Origin: Desulfovibrio intestinalis
Lineage (GTDB): Bacteria > Desulfobacterota > Desulfovibrionia > Desulfovibrionales > Desulfovibrionaceae
DNA: 64,000 nt
Reading direction: 5' to 3'
Assembly (NCBI RefSeq): GCF_014202345.1
Contig: NZ_JACHGO010000002.1
Span: forward strand, 124,001 to 188,000
In this document: piece after piece, positions 12,768-21,016 of the stretch
How positions within the stretch are numbered: position 1 is the stretch's first letter
Layout of the letters: each line of letters begins with the position of its first letter
The notes under the pieces: generated by a model
The model's input: only the letters and a program-made list of their open reading frames with translations
What the model was told of the DNA's origin: nothing
The model's database searches: none
Program-made: the position numbers and the translations under genes

Positions 12768-13502
12768 GTGAACAGACCATACGTTTTTTGCCACATGATG
12801 ACTTCTCTGGATGGAAAAATTATGGGCTCATATATGGAAACTCGGGAAGGTGAAGTTGCAGGAGACGTATTTTACAACATCGCCTTTGGAAAAGAGCCTT
12901 ACTACAAGCACCAGGGTTGGCTGTCAGGCAGGGTAACCACGGACGATAATTTCACACTGTATGAAAAACCTCTCCTGGACCAAAACGCTCCTTTGGTGGC
13001 AGCTGGCGATTATGTTGCTAGGCCTGACGCCGGCATGTTCTACGTTTCCGTTGATCCCTCTGGCAAGCTGGGCTGGAAGAAAAACGAATTGATCTATATT
13101 GACACCACAGCACACGTAATTGAGGTGCTGACAGGTAAGGCCAGCAATGCCTACAAAGCTTTTCTGCGTGACCTTGGCATCTCTTACATTATCGCAGGTG
13201 AGGGGGCTTTGGATTACGCCCTCGCCCTGAAGAAATTAAAAAATCTGTTTAATATTCAGACACTGATGCTCGGTGGAGGCGGGGTTTTAAACTGGTCTTT
13301 CATACAGGCCGGAATGTGTGATGAGCTTAGCGTCGTTGTTGCACCTGTTGCGGACGGTTCTTCGGCAACGCCTGCACTGTTTGAAGCAAGAGACGGGTTT
13401 TCGATCAGCAATCCTGTTGGTTTTACGCTCAAAAGCGCAAAAGTGAAAAGTGGGGGCAGCGTATGGCTGCGCTATACCGTGAATAATCAAAGAGATGAAT
13501 GA
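12768..13502 (+). CDS. RibD C-terminal / dihydrofolate reductase-fold protein
   Basis: 244 residues from GTG 12768, with AAGGAAA upstream. The N-terminus PYVFCHMMTSLDGKIMGSYM is the start of the RibD C-terminal domain, an NADPH-dependent DHFR-like fold. The second half carries LGISYIIAGEGALDYALALK and LMLGGGGVLNWSFI, matching the conserved nucleotide-binding region GGxxxN. Stand-alone members reduce pyrimidine or pterin-like compounds; the actual substrate is unknown. No other riboflavin gene is nearby, and the MFS exporter upstream suggests a small-molecule detoxification or export pair (inference). Confidence 0.8.
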   Translation: MNRPYVFCHMMTSLDGKIMGSYMETREGEVAGDVFYNIAFGKEPYYKHQGWLSGRVTTDDNFTLYEKPLLDQNAPLVAAGDYVARPDAGMFYVSVDPSGKLGWKKNELIYIDTTAHVIEVLTGKASNAYKAFLRDLGISYIIAGEGALDYALALKKLKNLFNIQTLMLGGGGVLNWSFIQAGMCDELSVVVAPVADGSSATPALFEARDGFSISNPVGFTLKSAKVKSGGSVWLRYTVNNQRDE

Positions 13503-13708: not shown

Positions 13709-14509
13709 TCAGGCGGTCATATCGTCCTGCTGCTCCAGAAGCGTCAGAATGCGGGCAACCAAGCCTGCATAGGCTGGGTCGTCTCTTCGCCGGGGGCGGG
13801 GCAACTCCACAGCAAACCTGTCCACAATGCGCCCTGGATTGGTGCCCATAACAATGATTTCGTCCGCAAGGTAGACGGATTCATCCACACTGTGCGTGAC
13901 GAACACGATTGTCTTCCGGCTTTGTTCCCAAACTTCAAGCAGCCTTTTTTGCAGCGTAATGCGCGTAAACGCGTCAATGGCTCCAAAGGGTTCGTCCATA
14001 AGCAGCACGTCAGGCGCGTTGGTCAGGGCACGCGCAATGGCCACCCTTTGCCGCATGCCGCCGGAAAGCTCATGTGGCATGGCCAGCGCGAATTTCTCAA
14101 GCCCCACCATGCCAAGATAGCGGCGTGCCTCCTGCTCGCGCTGATCCTTGCCCATGCCGTTGAATTGCAGTCCAATCCCCGTATTATCAAGCACATTCAG
14201 CCAGGGAAAAAGCGAATATTCCTGAAAAACCATGCCGATTTGCCGGCACGGGCCTTGCCGCTGTTCGCCACGAAAGCGAATTTCTCCCTGTTCACAGGGG
14301 CTCAGGCCAGCCATCATGCGCAGCAGGGTTGATTTCCCGCAGCCAGAAGGCCCAACTATGCAGACAAAGCGCGCGTGCTCCACCGTCATATTAACGTGGT
14401 GCAGGGCTTCAATGGGGCCGCTTTTGGTCACAAAAGTTTTTGATACGTCAGCGACCACGAGTTCTGAATGCAGTAAGGCAGCGTCCATTACTTTGTCAGT
14501 CGTTTCCAT
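13709..14509 (-). CDS. ABC transporter ATP-binding protein, nitrate/sulfonate/taurine type
   Basis: 266 residues from ATG 14509 (METTDKVMDAALLHSE), with AGGAAG upstream; the longer open frame is rejected because it covers the permease gene. Walker A GPSGCGKST, Q-loop VFQEYSLFPWLNVL, signature LSGGMRQRVAIARA and Walker B VLLMDEPFGAID are all intact, in the SsuB/TauB/NrtD pattern. It powers the permease at 14488-15321, whose 3' end it overlaps by 22 bases. It is the last gene of the NifB operon. Substrate unknown. Confidence 0.93.
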   Translation of the reverse strand: METTDKVMDAALLHSELVVADVSKTFVTKSGPIEALHHVNMTVEHARFVCIVGPSGCGKSTLLRMMAGLSPCEQGEIRFRGEQRQGPCRQIGMVFQEYSLFPWLNVLDNTGIGLQFNGMGKDQREQEARRYLGMVGLEKFALAMPHELSGGMRQRVAIARALTNAPDVLLMDEPFGAIDAFTRITLQKRLLEVWEQSRKTIVFVTHSVDESVYLADEIIVMGTNPGRIVDRFAVELPRPRRRDDPAYAGLVARILTLLEQQDDMTA

Positions 14510-15321
14510 ACAAACTTCCTGTCTTCGTAGAGCCTGAATAATCTGTCCAGCAACGCCCCGACAAGCCCGATACTTATCATGCCCGCTATAACGACGTCCG
14601 TTCGGCCCACGGTGTAGGCGTGAGTAATAAGATACCCCACGCCTGAAAGGCTGCCCGGCAACATCTCGGCTGATACAAGACACATCCAGGACACGCCAAG
14701 GCCAATGCGCAGGCCATTGATGATGGATGGCGCGGCGTATGGGAGCAGCACCTTGCGGAAAATATCTATCTGACTGGCCCCCAGAACCCTTGCCGCATCC
14801 GTAAGTGTTTGCGGCACCATGCCCACGCCGTGTATGGCGCTGGTGAGTATGGGATAAAACCCGCCGATGAAAATGATAAAAATCATAGATACTTTGATAT
14901 TATGAAAATATGGATATGCGGCCCCGATAGGCACGGAAAAAACGTCGGCCAGGCTCAGCATGCCAAACCACGCCAGTACCAGGGGAACCCAGGCCAGAGG
15001 AGGGATGGAGCGAAACAGGCCAAGAAACGTATTAAGGGCGGTATTTACGTCGGGCTTGTAGCCCATGATGATTCCAAGCGGAACAGCCAGAAGCACCGCA
15101 ATGATGTATCCCGCAAAAACCCGCGCCAGACTTATAAGCGTGTTGGCAGGCAGGGTACCCATTGAAATGACGTCATCGCTGGGGCTGGACAGCAGGCTCC
15201 AGACCTGCGGAATACCCGGCAGAATAATGTCGTTTTTCACCACATGGGCCATCAGGTGCCATAAGAGTAAAAATAACAGCGGAAATACGAGTGGAAGAAA
15301 AAATGCTTTAATATTTTTCAT
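14488..15321 (-). CDS. ABC transporter permease, SsuC/TauC type
   Basis: 277 residues with six predicted membrane spans. The EAA loop is seen as LTDAARVLGASQIDIFRKVLLPYAAPSIINGLRIGLG, here given in pieces: DAARVLGAS, then KVLLPYAAPSI, then GLRIGLG. It contacts the ATPase encoded by the overlapping gene downstream. The binding protein gene at 15455-16549 precedes it with a 133-base gap. Together the three form a complete importer of the NMT1/TauA class. Confidence 0.92.
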   Translation of the reverse strand: MKNIKAFFLPLVFPLLFLLLWHLMAHVVKNDIILPGIPQVWSLLSSPSDDVISMGTLPANTLISLARVFAGYIIAVLLAVPLGIIMGYKPDVNTALNTFLGLFRSIPPLAWVPLVLAWFGMLSLADVFSVPIGAAYPYFHNIKVSMIFIIFIGGFYPILTSAIHGVGMVPQTLTDAARVLGASQIDIFRKVLLPYAAPSIINGLRIGLGVSWMCLVSAEMLPGSLSGVGYLITHAYTVGRTDVVIAGMISIGLVGALLDRLFRLYEDRKFVWKRLTK

Positions 15322-15454
15322 TGGTTATGACCGCAAGATGAAAGCGTGCATGCAGTATAGCTCTCGGGCCGGGCCGCGTGGCTTCAAGCAGCTTTCACCC
15401 TTTTTAGTCTGCCCCGGCGTGCAGCCGCAAACCGGGGCAGACAATGGATAAGGC

Positions 15455-16549
15455 TTATTTACCGTTCAGAAATTGTGGGTCCACAAGAAGGCTTTCTGCC
15501 TCTTTAAAGGTTTTATCCTTCAAAGCGCCCTTGAAGTATCCGGCCTTGTTCAGGTCGTTCAGGTAGCCGTCTGCACCTTCTTTCCAGCCGTCAGTAAAGC
15601 TTTGTAAAAAGCGGAGGTTGGAATTCTTGCCGATCTCTTCCGGCAGGCCTATCCATTTGGAGCCAAGAATTCCGGCGCGCTGCGGGTCTTCATTGCACCA
15701 GCGGCCAATTCCGGCCATAAGCTTCACAAAATCCCGCACCAGTTCAGGGTGCGTGGCAATGACCTCGTCGCGCGCGGCGATAACGCAGCAGGGGTAGTCT
15801 GTCCACTTGCCTTCAGGCGGAAGGTTGCGGAGCATGCTGATATCGCAGCCAGCGCCTTTGCCTGCGGCTGTCTGGGGAAAGGGCTCCGGCCCGACCACCG
15901 CGTCAACCTGTTTGCTGCTCAGGGCGGGAATGAGGTTGGCCATGCCCTTCAGGTCTACCAGAACCACTTGCGCCTTCTGGTCCAGCGGGTTGCTCGTGTA
16001 GGTGATGCCCTCTGATTTGAGCGCGCTCTCAAGAATTATGATGGGCGCACTGCTGGGCGAGTGGTAGCCGATGCTCACAGGTTTGGACGATTTTTTGATG
16101 TAGGCAACAAATTCCTGCCACGTTTTGGCGGGAACATCGTTGGATACAACCACGCCGCCACTGGCCAGAACCAGAGGGGACACAATCTTGATGGGGATGT
16201 TTTTGTCGATGCCGGCCATAATGGCGGTTATGGAAGCGAGGCCGATATCAAGCTGCTTCTGGGCGAACAAGGTCGCAGTTTCCGAGCCGCTTTTGATAAC
16301 AACAATATCAAGCACCGCCACGGGCTTGCCGTCTTTCATGAGCTGATACTTTTCTTTGGGCACTATGGGCTGCATCCACATGCCTTCAACAGGCAGCTTT
16401 TCGCCCATATCCATAGCGGCCATGAGGGGCGTATGGTTGGTGGTAAAAATGTAGCCGACTTTCAGTCGGGGCAGTTCCGCCGCCTGCGCGGCAACACCAA
16501 GGGCGAGCAAAAGCGCTGTTGCCAGCATTTTACCAAACAGGGTGCGCAT
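15455..16549 (-). CDS. NMT1/TauA-type ABC substrate-binding protein
   Basis: 364 residues with a Sec signal peptide (LATALLLALGVAAQA, cleavage before AELPRL). Mature part begins PRLKVGYIFTTNHTPLMAAM, the pattern of periplasmic proteins binding nitrate, sulfonates, taurine or thiamine precursors. LDIGLASITAIMAGID and DAVVGPEPF are further family-type segments. GGAGGTAC upstream of ATG 16549 supports the start. The ligand cannot be read from the sequence. The gene lies 136 bases downstream of the nifB gene, so the importer may serve the NifB-dependent process. Confidence 0.9.
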   Translation of the reverse strand: MRTLFGKMLATALLLALGVAAQAAELPRLKVGYIFTTNHTPLMAAMDMGEKLPVEGMWMQPIVPKEKYQLMKDGKPVAVLDIVVIKSGSETATLFAQKQLDIGLASITAIMAGIDKNIPIKIVSPLVLASGGVVVSNDVPAKTWQEFVAYIKKSSKPVSIGYHSPSSAPIIILESALKSEGITYTSNPLDQKAQVVLVDLKGMANLIPALSSKQVDAVVGPEPFPQTAAGKGAGCDISMLRNLPPEGKWTDYPCCVIAARDEVIATHPELVRDFVKLMAGIGRWCNEDPQRAGILGSKWIGLPEEIGKNSNLRFLQSFTDGWKEGADGYLNDLNKAGYFKGALKDKTFKEAESLLVDPQFLNGK

Positions 16550-16685
16550 AGTACCTCCATCAGTTTTTTGTGCTTAATGAGAAAATTCTTGTTACATCCT
16601 TGGCAAATATATTTGCACAGTGTTTCAGTCACATCGGTCTGCCGCTGTGATCTGTTGGCAAGCGGGGCAAGTATGGCCTTATTGC

Positions 16686-17600
16686 CTACTGACCGTATTC
16701 ATGAGCCTTGGGCGGTTCCTGCGCTTGCATTTGTGCCTGCGCCCGAGGCTGAGCGCCACAGATGTCGTCAAGCTGGCCATCCTCGCCCAGAAGGCCCAGG
16801 GCGTCAGCACGGCAGCGCGTACAGTGGCGCATCTGGGGAATCACTTCGCCAGCCTCAGCCCGGATGCTGTGCATCAACTGCGCCGAGGGCGAAGAGGTGA
16901 GGGCAAAGCGTGTATTCGCCACAGGCAATAAGGGGATGCTGTTCATGAGGTCTGCTCCCCAGGCGGCGACGGCTTTGGCTATGTCAGACATGTGCGCATC
17001 ATTTACGCCGGGTATGACCACCGCGTTCACCTTGACGGTGACACCCAGTGATTTAAGCAGGCGTATTCCTATTTTCTGCCTTTCGAGCAAGAGGGCTGCC
17101 CCCTGCCGCCCGGACAGGCGCTTACCGCCGTCATCGACCCAGTTATAGATGGCTGCACCCACGTCGGGTCTGACCGCATTGACGGTTACCGTCACATGCC
17201 CGACGCCGAGGCCGGCCAGGGTTTGCGCGTGCAGCGGCAACGCCAGCCCATTGGTGGACAGACAAAGCAGAATGCCGGGCAGCGCCTTGCGCAGCTCTGC
17301 AAGAGTTTTTAGGGTTGGAGCGGCATTGGCCAGAGGATCGCCAGGGCCAGCAATACCAATGACACTCAGGTGCAGCATGCGGGCCACAGCACGCAGGGCC
17401 GCGTCCACAGCCTCATCGGGAGTGAGCAGGCGCGCCGTCACACCGGGGCGGGATTCGTTAACGCAGGAATAGCGGCGGTCGCAAAATCCGCATTGCACGT
17501 TGCAGCTTGCCGCCACGGGCAGATGCGCCCGGCCAAATGCGCGGTGCGCCTCCGGGTTGAAGCAGGGGTGCCGCGCACTGTCTGGCTGGTGTATGCTCAT
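16686..17600 (-). CDS. nifB: Nitrogenase cofactor biosynthesis protein NifB (radical SAM domain only)
   Basis: 304 residues from ATG 17600, overlapping the upstream gene by four bases (ATGA) with GGGG six bases before it. The NifB signature is strong: HPCFNPEAHRAFGRAHLPVA, the radical SAM triad CNVQCGFC, NESRPGV, and the C-terminal MRHCTRCRADALGLLGED with CxxC. HPC and CxxC are the extra cluster ligands of true NifB, so it should be able to make NifB-co, the [8Fe-9S-C] precursor, from SAM and [4Fe-4S] clusters. The NifX-like C-terminal domain of many bacterial NifBs is missing, as in short NifBs. No nifH, D, K, E or N is in the window. Function in a nitrogenase or a nitrogenase-like reductase encoded elsewhere is inferred. 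Confidence 0.88.
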   Translation of the reverse strand: MSIHQPDSARHPCFNPEAHRAFGRAHLPVAASCNVQCGFCDRRYSCVNESRPGVTARLLTPDEAVDAALRAVARMLHLSVIGIAGPGDPLANAAPTLKTLAELRKALPGILLCLSTNGLALPLHAQTLAGLGVGHVTVTVNAVRPDVGAAIYNWVDDGGKRLSGRQGAALLLERQKIGIRLLKSLGVTVKVNAVVIPGVNDAHMSDIAKAVAAWGADLMNSIPLLPVANTRFALTSSPSAQLMHSIRAEAGEVIPQMRHCTRCRADALGLLGEDGQLDDICGAQPRAQAQMQAQEPPKAHEYGQ

Positions 17601-18373
17601 TCCTTGCCCCTTGGCTTCAGGCCAAACCGTATGCAGTCTTTGGGGCACGATCCTACGCAGTCACCGCAGTTGGTGCAGTTTTCTTCGTCCGGCCTGGTAC
17701 GCATGAGGCAAACCTTGCGGCATTTGTCGCAGTCATTGCATTCGGACGTTTTGTAAAAGCGAAAGAGGGTAAAACGCCGCACCAGTTCAAGGGCTGCGCC
17801 AAAGGGACAGGCAAAACGGCACCAGCACATGACGATGCCCAATCCCAGCGCGAGGATGCCCACTGTAAGCACAAAGCGCAGTTGCCACATGGGAAAGGCA
17901 TGCTCCCATGTGAGCCATACCGAGGGCCAGAATTCACCTACGCGCAGGGGCACATTCACCCGTGGCTGGCCCAGGGCGAACCATGCCAGCAGCGCAGCGG
18001 CCAGCATAAGATATTTGGCCCACCTGTAGTTGCGCACGCCCACGGGGTTGGGGCCGAATTTGAAGGGGTTAAGCGCCAGAACGCGGTTGGTCAGGGCTCC
18101 CGGGCAAAGCCAGCCGCAAAAAGCCCTGCCGAAGAAAATAGCCACAGCCAGCCAGACGCCCCAAAATCCCCAGAACAGGCGGGATAATTGACCAGGGCAG
18201 GCCATGACAGGGCAGTTCTGGCAGCTGACAAAAGGAACTACAAAGGGGCAACGAAATACGCCGTACAGGCCCCACTCGCCAATGAAAATAGTGGAAATGA
18301 CGAGCACGGCCCTGTTACACCAATGGAGCGCCCGTAGTCTGCGGCTGGGGCGGGCAACTATTTCATGCAACAT
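17597..18373 (-). CDS. NapH-like membrane polyferredoxin (4Fe-4S)
   Basis: 258 residues with about four to five membrane spans. Between them are CxxCPVMACP and CGWLCPGAL-type motifs of the NapH/NosR/CcoG group. The C-terminal ~50 residues hold two [4Fe-4S] motifs, CNDCDKCRKVC and CTNCGDCVGSCPKDC. Such proteins pass quinol-derived or other electrons across or along the membrane. The start overlaps the preceding binding-protein gene by 11 bases and the stop overlaps nifB, so the three are translationally coupled. Supplying low-potential electrons to NifB or its client enzyme is my inference. Confidence 0.88.
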   Translation of the reverse strand: MLHEIVARPSRRLRALHWCNRAVLVISTIFIGEWGLYGVFRCPFVVPFVSCQNCPVMACPGQLSRLFWGFWGVWLAVAIFFGRAFCGWLCPGALTNRVLALNPFKFGPNPVGVRNYRWAKYLMLAAALLAWFALGQPRVNVPLRVGEFWPSVWLTWEHAFPMWQLRFVLTVGILALGLGIVMCWCRFACPFGAALELVRRFTLFRFYKTSECNDCDKCRKVCLMRTRPDEENCTNCGDCVGSCPKDCIRFGLKPRGKE

Positions 18374-19217
18374 CTTTTACCCCCAGCTTTTCAATCAGCT
18401 CCTGTCCCTTGGGAGAAAGGGATGTGTAAAATCCGGCCTTTTCAAAAAATTCCTGCCCCTGCGGGCTTGTCAGCCAATCGATGTAGGCAACGGCCCTGTC
18501 TTTGTCTGCCGCGTCTGCCATAAGGCCCACAGTAAACGTCAGTGGCCCGGCGGGGAAAAACTTTTCGGGAATTTCCACGGCCTCCAGCTGATTGGCAAAA
18601 CGTTCCATACGGCAGATGCGCCGTTCAACAATCATCGCGTCAGCGCTGCCAGTGGCGACGTCCTTTACAGACCTTTGCACACAGGTTCCCTGTTCCGGCA
18701 CGTTGGCCAAAACCTTTGGGGTCAGATCAGCTGCTTTGAGTATGCCCATAACAGCCTGACCGCCGGGGGCGGAGGCTTCCTTTGCCATAGCCACGCGCAC
18801 GCCGGGCCGGGCAAGGTCTTCAATGCCGCTGATATTGGCGGGGTTGCCCTTGGGTACAGCGATGACATAGCTCGTAAAGCACAGGGGCTTGAAATATATC
18901 ATCTTGCCAGCCTTGCGCAGGTTCTGTGCAAGAGCGAGCACACGTCCGGCAAAAACTTCGGTATGCCCGCTGCCGGTAAGCAAGGACTTGCCAAGGGCAG
19001 CGGCAAAAGCTCCTGTATAAACAATGTCGACGCCAGATTGCCGCGTATACTCCGCGTGCGCCGGGCACATAGCTTCTGCAAGCCCGCCGCATGACCATAC
19101 CTGCAACGTTCCACCGTTTGCGGCCCTTGCAGCCTGCGGACTTATGAGCGCCGCCCCGGCTGCGCCCAGTGCCAGCGATTTGATGAAACCGCGCCGCCCA
19201 TTTCCTTTTGTATCCAT
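18363..19217 (-). CDS. Tat-exported ModA-like substrate-binding protein
   Basis: 284 residues from ATG 19217 (MDTKGNGRRGFIKSLALG); GGGAGG sits five bases upstream. The RRGFIKS twin-arginine motif and Ala-rich hydrophobic stretch to PQAARA mark a Tat signal. The mature part resembles type 2 periplasmic binding proteins of the molybdate/tungstate group (LQVWSCGGLAEAM, TGAFAAALGKSLLTGSGHTEVFAG, VAVPKGNPANISGIEDLARPGV given in parts). No ModB/ModC permease is adjacent. First gene of the NifB operon. Oxyanion or metal-complex binding is plausible, not shown; Tat export may mean folding with a bound cofactor. Confidence 0.8.
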   Translation of the reverse strand: MDTKGNGRRGFIKSLALGAAGAALISPQAARAANGGTLQVWSCGGLAEAMCPAHAEYTRQSGVDIVYTGAFAAALGKSLLTGSGHTEVFAGRVLALAQNLRKAGKMIYFKPLCFTSYVIAVPKGNPANISGIEDLARPGVRVAMAKEASAPGGQAVMGILKAADLTPKVLANVPEQGTCVQRSVKDVATGSADAMIVERRICRMERFANQLEAVEIPEKFFPAGPLTFTVGLMADAADKDRAVAYIDWLTSPQGQEFFEKAGFYTSLSPKGQELIEKLGVKDVA

Positions 19218-20128: not shown

Positions 20129-21016
20129 TCAGCCTGCGTTTGGTTCATCAAGACTTTCGTGGCTGGGGGTTGTTGCGCTGGCTTCCTGAGCACTTTCACG
20201 CGCAAAAACGAGCCAGTGGAACAACCCCACAAGTACGCCGCCGCCAAGTATGTTGCCCAGCGTCACCGGAATAAGATTTTTCAGCACAAAGTTTTCCCAG
20301 GTGAGCAAAGAGAGGGTGTTAACCGGGTCCGCCAGTTTGGCCGCCACTTCGGGGGGCATCATGCCACTGCAAAGTATGCCGATGGGGATCATGAACATGT
20401 TGGCGATACTGTGCTCAAATCCACATGAAATAAACAAGCCCACGGGAAAAAGACAGGCGGCCATCTTGTCAAAAAGCGAGCGCCCAGAGTAGCCCATCCA
20501 AACGCCAAGGCAGACCATCAGATTGCACATGACCCCAAGAAAGAGGGCCTCGGTGAAGGTGTACGTCAGTTTGTATTCAGTGGTTTTGATATAATAAAGG
20601 GCAATGCTGCCGCCGTCTTTCCAGGGGTGCCCGCTAAGAAGAATGAGGGCCACCAGCGCAATAGCGCCAATAAAGTTTCCCGCATAAACAACGCCCCAGT
20701 TGGAGAACATCTGCCGCCAGGTGATCTTGCGGCTGGCGCGCGGAACAAGCGTCATAGTGGTTGAGGTGAAAAGGTCGCCGCCCAACACCACAACAAGCAT
20801 AAGACCAAGACTGAATACAAGCCCGCCAACAATTTTTCCTGCCCCGGTAACGTTTGCCACGGCGCAATATACAAAGCCCAGCCCGATGAACAGGCCCGCC
20901 ATCACTGCCAGCAAAAAAGCCTGACGAGGAGGCCTTGTCGCCTTGATTATCATTGTTTCCACAACCTTGCCGTACATCTGGCGAGGATTCAGCGCTTCAA
21001 AAGACGCTCCAGTCAT
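20129..21016 (-). CDS. Formate/nitrite (FNT) family channel, FocA-like
   Basis: 295 residues, six membrane spans, start ATG 21016 with AAGGAGAA six bases upstream. The second half contains CNLMVCLGVWMGYSGRS, and GFEHSIANMFMIPIG follows, the FocA-type signatures; the His in GFEHSIANM is the conserved pore histidine. These pentameric channels move formate (some members nitrite or hydrosulfide) across the inner membrane. No pyruvate formate-lyase or formate dehydrogenase gene is adjacent, so the substrate is assigned by family resemblance only. Long non-coding DNA flanks the gene on both sides. Confidence 0.9.
   Translation of the reverse strand: MTGASFEALNPRQMYGKVVETMIIKATRPPRQAFLLAVMAGLFIGLGFVYCAVANVTGAGKIVGGLVFSLGLMLVVVLGGDLFTSTTMTLVPRASRKITWRQMFSNWGVVYAGNFIGAIALVALILLSGHPWKDGGSIALYYIKTTEYKLTYTFTEALFLGVMCNLMVCLGVWMGYSGRSLFDKMAACLFPVGLFISCGFEHSIANMFMIPIGILCSGMMPPEVAAKLADPVNTLSLLTWENFVLKNLIPVTLGNILGGGVLVGLFHWLVFARESAQEASATTPSHESLDEPNAG

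Follow-up and report, generated by a model that had tools for sequence, protein, structure and literature searches.

A 64,000-nt stretch of the Desulfovibrio intestinalis genome (the window; contig C2, positions 124,001 to 188,000) contains an operon in which an extra copy of NifB is joined to a protein with a twin-arginine translocation (Tat) signal and the fold of the binding protein ModA (hereafter substrate-binding protein, SBP), to a NapH-like membrane protein, and to an importer of the ATP-binding cassette (ABC) type. The genes for SBP, the NapH-like protein and NifB are the conserved core of a module found in at least six bacterial phyla, and computation shows that SBP depends on NifB and, it appears, not on nitrogenase. 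NifB has been called "unique to diazotrophic organisms" (PMC5601070), and exceptions have been described for Mar enzymes (PMC12552129) and for archaeal activation of methyl-coenzyme M reductase (MCR; PMC12176620). That the NifB module sometimes occurs in genomes in which no nitrogenase was found suggests a separate use of the cluster chemistry, and nifB alone is unsafe ground for calling a genome diazotrophic. No description of the module was found in the open-access literature, judged from titles and the openings of abstracts. This small module is present in anaerobes that are in culture, Sporomusa ovata among them.

Distribution of the module and its relation to NifB and nitrogenase

One genome per species from 84,980 species was scanned with an alignment of seven SBPs as query. 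At least 69 loci were detected, a lower bound because a hit must contain either of two exact peptide patterns. Record titles and tree labels place them in at least six phyla, Desulfobacterota, Bacillota (Negativicutes), Planctomycetota, Bacteroidota, Acidobacteriota, and Fibrobacterota, and some metagenome-assembled genomes (MAGs) are labelled Myxococcota or Pseudomonadota. With N's in the assemblies allowed for, a NapH-like gene adjoins SBP in 63 of the 69 loci, and the other six stop within 198 b of a contig edge. NifB adjoins SBP or is fused with it in 42 loci and is absent with room for it in 14; contig ends cut the remaining 13 loci. For the 14 loci without it, NifB is encoded elsewhere in all nine genomes searched and a nif NifB lies inside the locus in three more, L119 and L124 being outside the NifB search. 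NifB and SBP form one open frame, an in-frame fusion, in L087, L127 and L131, which may be seen as a parallel to the NifB-NifX fusion, where NifB is joined to a NifX-like domain (PMC5715403). The congener G190 has the same six genes as the window in the same order at 75-89% identity; together with the three-gene core across phyla, this makes the arrangement more than chance. The partners of this NifB are unlike those of ordinary nif operons, as was noted in an initial reading of the window from its sequence alone (the sequence-only reading).

The dependence on NifB was quantified in 199 Desulfovibrionaceae genomes, of which 114, counted by hand, are NifB-positive at E < 1e-40. SBP is encoded in 38 of the 199, all 38 with NifB, and in none of the 85 NifB-negative genomes (Fisher P 2.8e-11, uncorrected for kinship). 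Nitrogenase components were sought with PF00148 in all 68 genomes holding the 69 loci (L079 and L090 share one genome, G207). No NifD/K homolog was detected in 18 of the 68, two (G229 and G248) gave marginal matches only, nine gave distant matches only (best E 9.8e-36 to 6.9e-13), and 39 gave strong matches (1.4e-59 or better). Of the 18 genomes without NifD/K, 14 have NifB next to SBP or fused with it; in the other four the SBP locus is truncated by a contig edge. Thirteen of the 15 such genomes among the first 50 encode one NifB gene each, weak radical-SAM/NifX-like matches aside; no clear NifB was found in the search of G216 and G244, whose loci are cut. The main caveat is genome incompleteness, the 18 hosts being mostly MAGs plus one single-contig chromosome of 3.8 Mb (G245, locus L127). 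SelD, taken as yardstick, passes its cut-off in 46 of the same 50 genomes, 13 of the 15 without NifD/K among them; at the SelD miss rate, absence of NifD/K from 15 of 50 would be unlikely (P 5e-6).

The host genome (3.44 Mb, 99.97% complete) was searched in full for NifH and NifD/K, the check that the sequence-only reading had proposed. Two NifH genes are full length and five further matches are weak or partial; the NifD/K-type genes number six and are nifDKEN and anfDK only. Contig C3 carries nifH, two GlnB-like genes, nifD, nifK, nifE, and a NifN-NifB-NifX fusion (959 aa), and contig C1 carries the Fe-only nitrogenase genes anfH, two GlnB-like genes, anfD, anfG, anfK, and an AnfA-like regulator. 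Inside the window (C2:124001-188000) the searches for NifH and NifD/K gave no match, in agreement with the original observation that nifHDKEN is missing from it. Because the nif set with its own NifB and the Fe-only nitrogenase sit elsewhere in the genome, the window NifB, which is 44% identical to the nif NifB, is an extra copy and part of neither operon. The nif operon here is thus not one that is missing a nifB, its NifB being carried in the fusion. That three-domain fusion (G000, C3; L008:3589-6468) is a separate observation: it lies outside the Firmicutes, in a Desulfovibrionaceae-like genome, and PMC5715403 describes the architecture as confined to Firmicutes; frames of similar length are present in congeners. 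No sigma-54 site was found upstream of the window SBP, and none in 70 SBP upstream regions (0.18 expected), with a control in the host genome that found a site upstream of anfH and none upstream of nifH and so worked for anfH only. NifA boxes occur in 3 of the 70 regions (6.0 expected), not above chance.

The module proteins, the window operon, and neighboring genes

The window protein is NifB by every sequence test made, and the possibility that it falls outside NifB failed for that reason. It passes the NCBIfam nifB model TIGR01290 at 348.5 bits (cut-off 343.65); several other module NifBs fall under the cut-off (L111, 310.2 bits; L127, 262.1 bits), and the model spans a NifX part that they lack. 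All six motifs described for NifB in PMC5715403 (HPC, Cx3Cx2C, ExRP, AGPG, TxTxN, and Cx2CRxDAxG) are present; the sequence-only reading had noted all cluster-ligand motifs in this short form. In 48 module NifBs, matched with slightly relaxed patterns, HPC, Cx3Cx2C and AGPG were found in all 48, TxTxN in 47, Cx2CRxDAxG in 46, and ExRP in 37; one of the two proteins without Cx2CRxDAxG (L103) is cut by a contig end. A divergent clade lacks ExRP and has its loop cysteine shifted in the L127 alignment. The window NifB, aligned to MtNifB 6y1x (249.6 bits) and read by eye, keeps the RS ligands and the K1/K2 cluster ligands of solved NifB (PMC9692996).

In a tree with 31 nif rows, all from Desulfovibrionaceae, the module NifBs form one clade of 37 (support 98/86) and a deep clade of 10. 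The deep clade, which holds the divergent proteins, is supported at 100/100 in both main trees. Widening the nif sample and adding two archaeal rows breaks the large clade into three subclades with no resolved order relative to Desulfobacterota nif NifB; without the archaeal rows the large module set forms one side of a branch (79/81). A single origin of all module NifBs was not upheld, the deep clade being separate and the large set splitting in the wider tree. The later trees drop 24 earlier rows (near-duplicates and the long branch L131) and omit 16 fetched rows, 15 already represented and one a split gene; two further stretches held no usable open reading frame (ORF). The genome's nif NifB groups with Megasphaera nif NifBs, in a different clade from the window NifB, and the module and nif NifBs of Sporomusa are likewise apart.

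All 74 SBPs compared (the window protein, eight family loci, and 65 scan loci with an ORF >200 bits) share C43, C113, C179 and the twin arginine without exception. An AlphaFold2 model of SBP from 64 sequences (pLDDT, predicted local distance difference test, 89.9) has C43 starting helix 44-61, C179 starting helix 180-188, and C113 ending strand 106-114. Its closest solved structure is the ModA-like protein 4kd5 (Z 25.8, root mean square deviation 2.3, 225 residues). In an alignment to a solved ModA-like protein, C43 and C179 adjoin positions that bind molybdate in ModA, and SBP has Gly at the position of the ModA ligand Ser12. The three cysteines are predicted to lie at the ligand cleft, a placement that rests on the alignment, secondary structure and presumed ModA ligand positions. 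SBP scored 50.4 bits against modA TIGR01256 (cut-off 62.5), the L111 SBP scored 45.3, and no NCBIfam model matched SBP over its cut-off; the original label "ModA-like" is therefore fair as to fold and not as to family membership. The NapH-like protein is likewise below the cut-off for NapH TIGR02163 (48.7 bits against 213). Replacement of SBP cysteines by selenocysteine, considered for two loci without an intact ORF, was rejected: L079 encodes the same three cysteines in an assembly containing N's, and L090 is frameshifted.

All six minus-strand genes were confirmed where the sequence-only reading had placed them (Table 1), with overlaps of 11 b between the SBP and NapH-like genes and 4 b between the NapH-like gene and nifB. 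The NMT1-type importer was upheld, its NMT1_2, BPD_transp_1, and ABC_tran parts all scoring over the Pfam cut-off; the best matches of the permease and ATPase are of the NMT1/TauT type, with their own binding protein alongside, and no ModBC partners for SBP were found in the operon. Against NCBIfam SaoA, SaoP and SaoX, models for the organomercurial importer SaoABP, the scores were 242.6, 155.9 and 24.7 bits, all below the cut-offs of 360, 295 and 300. The operon is flanked by genes for a RibD_C-domain reductase (window 12768-13502) and a FocA-type formate transporter (window 20129-21016).

Table 1. Genes of the window operon (window coordinates)
Feature	Coordinates	Strand	Basis
SBP: Tat-exported ModA-fold protein, C43/C113/C179 invariant	18363..19217	-	conserved residues, model, fold match
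NapH-like membrane protein, C-terminal 2x[4Fe-4S] ferredoxin motifs	17597..18373	-	topology, Cys motifs, profile searches
NifB, radical-SAM domain only, all six NifB motifs	16686..17600 from ATG	-	NCBIfam, motifs, alignment
NMT1_2-type periplasmic binding protein of ABC importer	15455..16549	-	Pfam PF13379, 112.5 bits
ABC importer permease	14488..15321	-	PF00528, 73.5 bits
ABC importer ATPase	13709..~14509, start inferred; longest frame from 14683	-	PF00005, 118.2 bits

NMT1-type importers adjoin the module in the window, G190, L111, and L116, and a relative of the window's NMT1_2-type binding protein does so in G190 and L111. Directly upstream, Pfam identifies alginate-export-family porins in L093 and L127, and sequence similarity points to them in L108, L121, and L125; an upstream "porin" in L056 had no Pfam match, the name being a reading only. 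In L109 SBP is preceded by a MauE protein and a rhodanese (Pfam), with look-alikes in L104, L115, and L085; in L073 SBP has two ABC permease genes (Pfam) and an ATPase-like frame immediately upstream. No constant ABC partner of SBP was found across the loci. The neighboring uptake genes differ by locus, so the core consists of three genes, with uptake genes exchanged from one lineage to another. The idea of an imported small molecule, as first proposed, is kept in modified form: uptake genes do recur next to the module, but of kinds that vary by lineage.

Selenium is the best single lead on the substrate, though not a universal one. In 10 of 69 loci, from about seven lineages, a gene for the selenium transporter YedE is found no more than 3.4 kb away, where chance would give one or fewer, and in all ten of those genomes YedE scores over the family cut-off on the module's contig. 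Across module genomes, YedE is over cut-off in 28 of 59 and SelD in 55 of 59. Selenium as a strict requirement was rejected because neither SelD nor YedE passes its cut-off in the one-chromosome genome G245 (L127). SelD and a Sec-lyase-like desulfurase were confirmed near the module in L098, and TusA/DUF3343-like and SelB-like genes in L117 and L118 are named by sequence reading only. In the host genome YedE is 17 kb from the module, outside the window. The words NifB and NapH are absent from the main texts of two selenium papers (PMC5322559 and PMC13188914). Just outside the window, a cassette (G000, C2:117468-120575; L135:4468-7575) contains YedE, a DUF3343-like gene and a third gene, which recurs beside YedE in L082 and L117.

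A proposed mechanism and its alternatives

We propose, with about even confidence, that SBP, the NapH-like protein and NifB are one dedicated, nitrogenase-independent system in which SBP receives an iron-sulfur(-carbide) cluster made by NifB, is exported, and is reduced by way of NapH. Cytoplasmic NifB would build a complex iron-sulfur cluster, judging by its conserved ligands most likely the usual [Fe8S9C] product, which would pass to SBP and be held by the three invariant cleft cysteines. The Tat pathway carries proteins folded with their cofactor, and SBP, which has the signal, would leave by this route folded and loaded. The NapH-like protein, as its family suggests, may then send electrons through the membrane to exported SBP, which would bind and then reduce or trap a small compound, with the lineage-specific uptake genes (YedE, NMT1-type importer, outer-membrane porins) importing the substrate or taking up the product. 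Such chemistry has precedents: the L-cluster on NifB is described as reducing N2 with a reductant or a low-potential ferredoxin and no ATP (PMC13245594), and MCR activation employs L-clusters, one cluster being bound by two and perhaps three cysteines (PMC12176620). Beneath the proposal lie computed observations: conservation of the gene set, the NifB-SBP fusions, the reliance of SBP on NifB, the many module genomes without NifD/K, and the invariant cysteines. If it is true, a bacterial NifB module without NifD/K, tied or fused to an exported protein of unrelated fold, would represent a quite different client for NifB chemistry.

Several points weigh against this proposal. The holding of a cluster by SBP is something we infer. 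The fusions place the Tat signal inside a polypeptide, which is hard to reconcile with export unless SBP has its own start. Because 14 loci with room have no adjoining NifB, NifB is sometimes shared with nif. At a 20% gene-miss rate the lack of NifD/K in 15 of 50 genomes would not be surprising (P 0.06), and all 12 hosts not titled MAG have strong NifD/K. Among the Desulfovibrionaceae, Anf is commoner in SBP genomes (10/38 versus 9/161), an association that persists within the 114 NifB-positive genomes (P = 0.02). A narrower version, in which the Tat-secreted ModA-fold metalloprotein with its NifB carbide-centered cluster and NapH-like conduit captures and reduces selenium or a related chalcogen compound for YedE or NMT1-type uptake, is speculative and we think it improbable; if true, the module would serve as a dedicated high-affinity system for acquiring selenium, and a nitrogenase-type cluster would for the first time be in use beyond the cytoplasm and in proteins other than the Nif and MCR families.

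The ModA fold of SBP, the porins, YedE, NMT1-type and other ABC genes nearby, and the ABC genes directly upstream of SBP in L073 would also fit SBP as a plain periplasmic receptor that binds an oxyanion or thio-anion (selenite, molybdate, thiomolybdate, thiosulfate), with NifB and the NapH-like protein using or processing the import; flow would therefore be inward and SBP would carry no cluster. We consider this rather unlikely, since SBP is below the modA cut-off, has Gly at the presumed Ser12 ligand position and three invariant cysteines, and lacks a constant ABC partner across loci, and since a receptor role alone leaves its need for NifB unexplained. The window NifB could instead supply cofactor to the Mo- or Fe-only nitrogenase, as a spare or under particular conditions, for example when the NifN-NifB-NifX fusion is repressed, with SBP and NapH as accessories for metal supply and electrons. 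Its merits are the presence of both nif and anf in the host, the Anf enrichment and the strong NifD/K of hosts not titled MAG, both given above, and the position of SBP ~7-8 kb from the nif NifB in eight Desulfovibrionaceae of one genus. It is nonetheless doubtful given the 18 module genomes without NifD/K, the congeners with Anf and a single NifB (G040, G154, and G176), the different clades of the window and nif NifBs, and the lack of a sigma-54 site. The related suggestion of the sequence-only reading, a detached cofactor module of a normal nitrogenase, keeps the Anf enrichment in its favor and is weakened because the nif set has its own NifB, Anf congeners have one NifB, and no sigma-54 site lies upstream of SBP. 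An Anf-specific NifB was dropped as main explanation, though the SBP-Anf association is positive.

Loss of NifB-co synthesis, with the module NifB acting as a radical-SAM maturase that modifies SBP or another cluster, is suggested by the divergent clade without ExRP and with a shifted loop cysteine (11 of 48 lack ExRP); it is hard to credit when the window NifB keeps six motifs and the K1/K2 ligands and when ExRP is kept in 37 and Cx2CRxDAxG in 46 of 48. Least credible, and in our judgment very improbable, is the other client first imagined, a nitrogenase-like (non-nif) reductase that works on an imported molecule. An arrangement of this kind is known from MarB with MarHDK (PMC12552129), and nine of the 68 module genomes have distant NifD/K-like genes only; but the host genome has nifDKEN and anfDK only, no NifD/K was found in 18 module genomes, and the single-contig genome of L127, one with the module and no NifD/K match, already points against such a client. 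In three Megasphaera regions the distant genes lie away from the module with genes that read as hydrogenase-maturation-like (Hyp, HydF-like), and they were set aside as its client. In these regions (L136, L137, and L138; genomes G230, G223, and G222) two NifH/NifD/NifK-like sets are interleaved with genes that by sequence reading encode HypF, HypD, HypE, and a HydF-like GTPase, a nitrogenase-like cluster thus being mingled with hydrogenase maturation. NifD/K-like islands were also observed in Sporomusa sp. KB1 (G236, L113; C1:2888309-2972575), where the genome has 24 PF00148 matches, mostly in one stretch, and in a Geobacteraceae MAG (G239, L117; C50:19169-60102) with 16, again mostly in one stretch, and with an extra NifB-like gene near the island (L147).

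Comparison with known systems

The window NifB resembles the nif-operon NifB, a radical-SAM carbide-insertion enzyme, in its six motifs and RS/K1/K2 ligands, and differs in its separate clade, its SBP and NapH partners, and the occurrence of module NifB without NifD/K. The nifHDK/EN neighbors of a nif or anf operon were not found with the window module, sigma-54 and NifA sites upstream of SBP genes do not exceed chance, and the NifB-SBP fusion is not among the three NifB architectures set out in PMC5715403. SBP shares its fold with the molybdate-binding protein ModA (Z 25.8 to 4kd5), but differs by its sub-cut-off family score, three invariant cleft cysteines, Tat signal and lack of a constant ModBC partner. 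The NapH-like protein has the topology and Cys motifs of NapH/MauN membrane ferredoxins, but scores far below the NapH cut-off and stands in an operon without Nap or Mau genes. Selenium-utilization genes (YedE, SelD, YedF, and DUF3343) are recurrent neighbors, YedE above chance, but the module does not always occur with SelD or YedE.

Two systems come closest in using NifB chemistry beyond nitrogenase. MarB of the methylthio-alkane reductase MarHDK is likewise a NifB homolog dedicated to a non-nitrogenase client (PMC12552129); the Mar client is a cytoplasmic NifD/K-family enzyme, whereas the host genome has no NifD/K beyond nif and anf, and no MarDK lies beside the window NifB. The methanogen MCR activation complex (McrC/Mmp7) is archaeal and cytoplasmic and is built of other proteins, without SBP, Tat, or NapH, but it too needs NifB and employs a NifB product outside nitrogenase, in the form of Cys-ligated L-clusters (PMC12176620).

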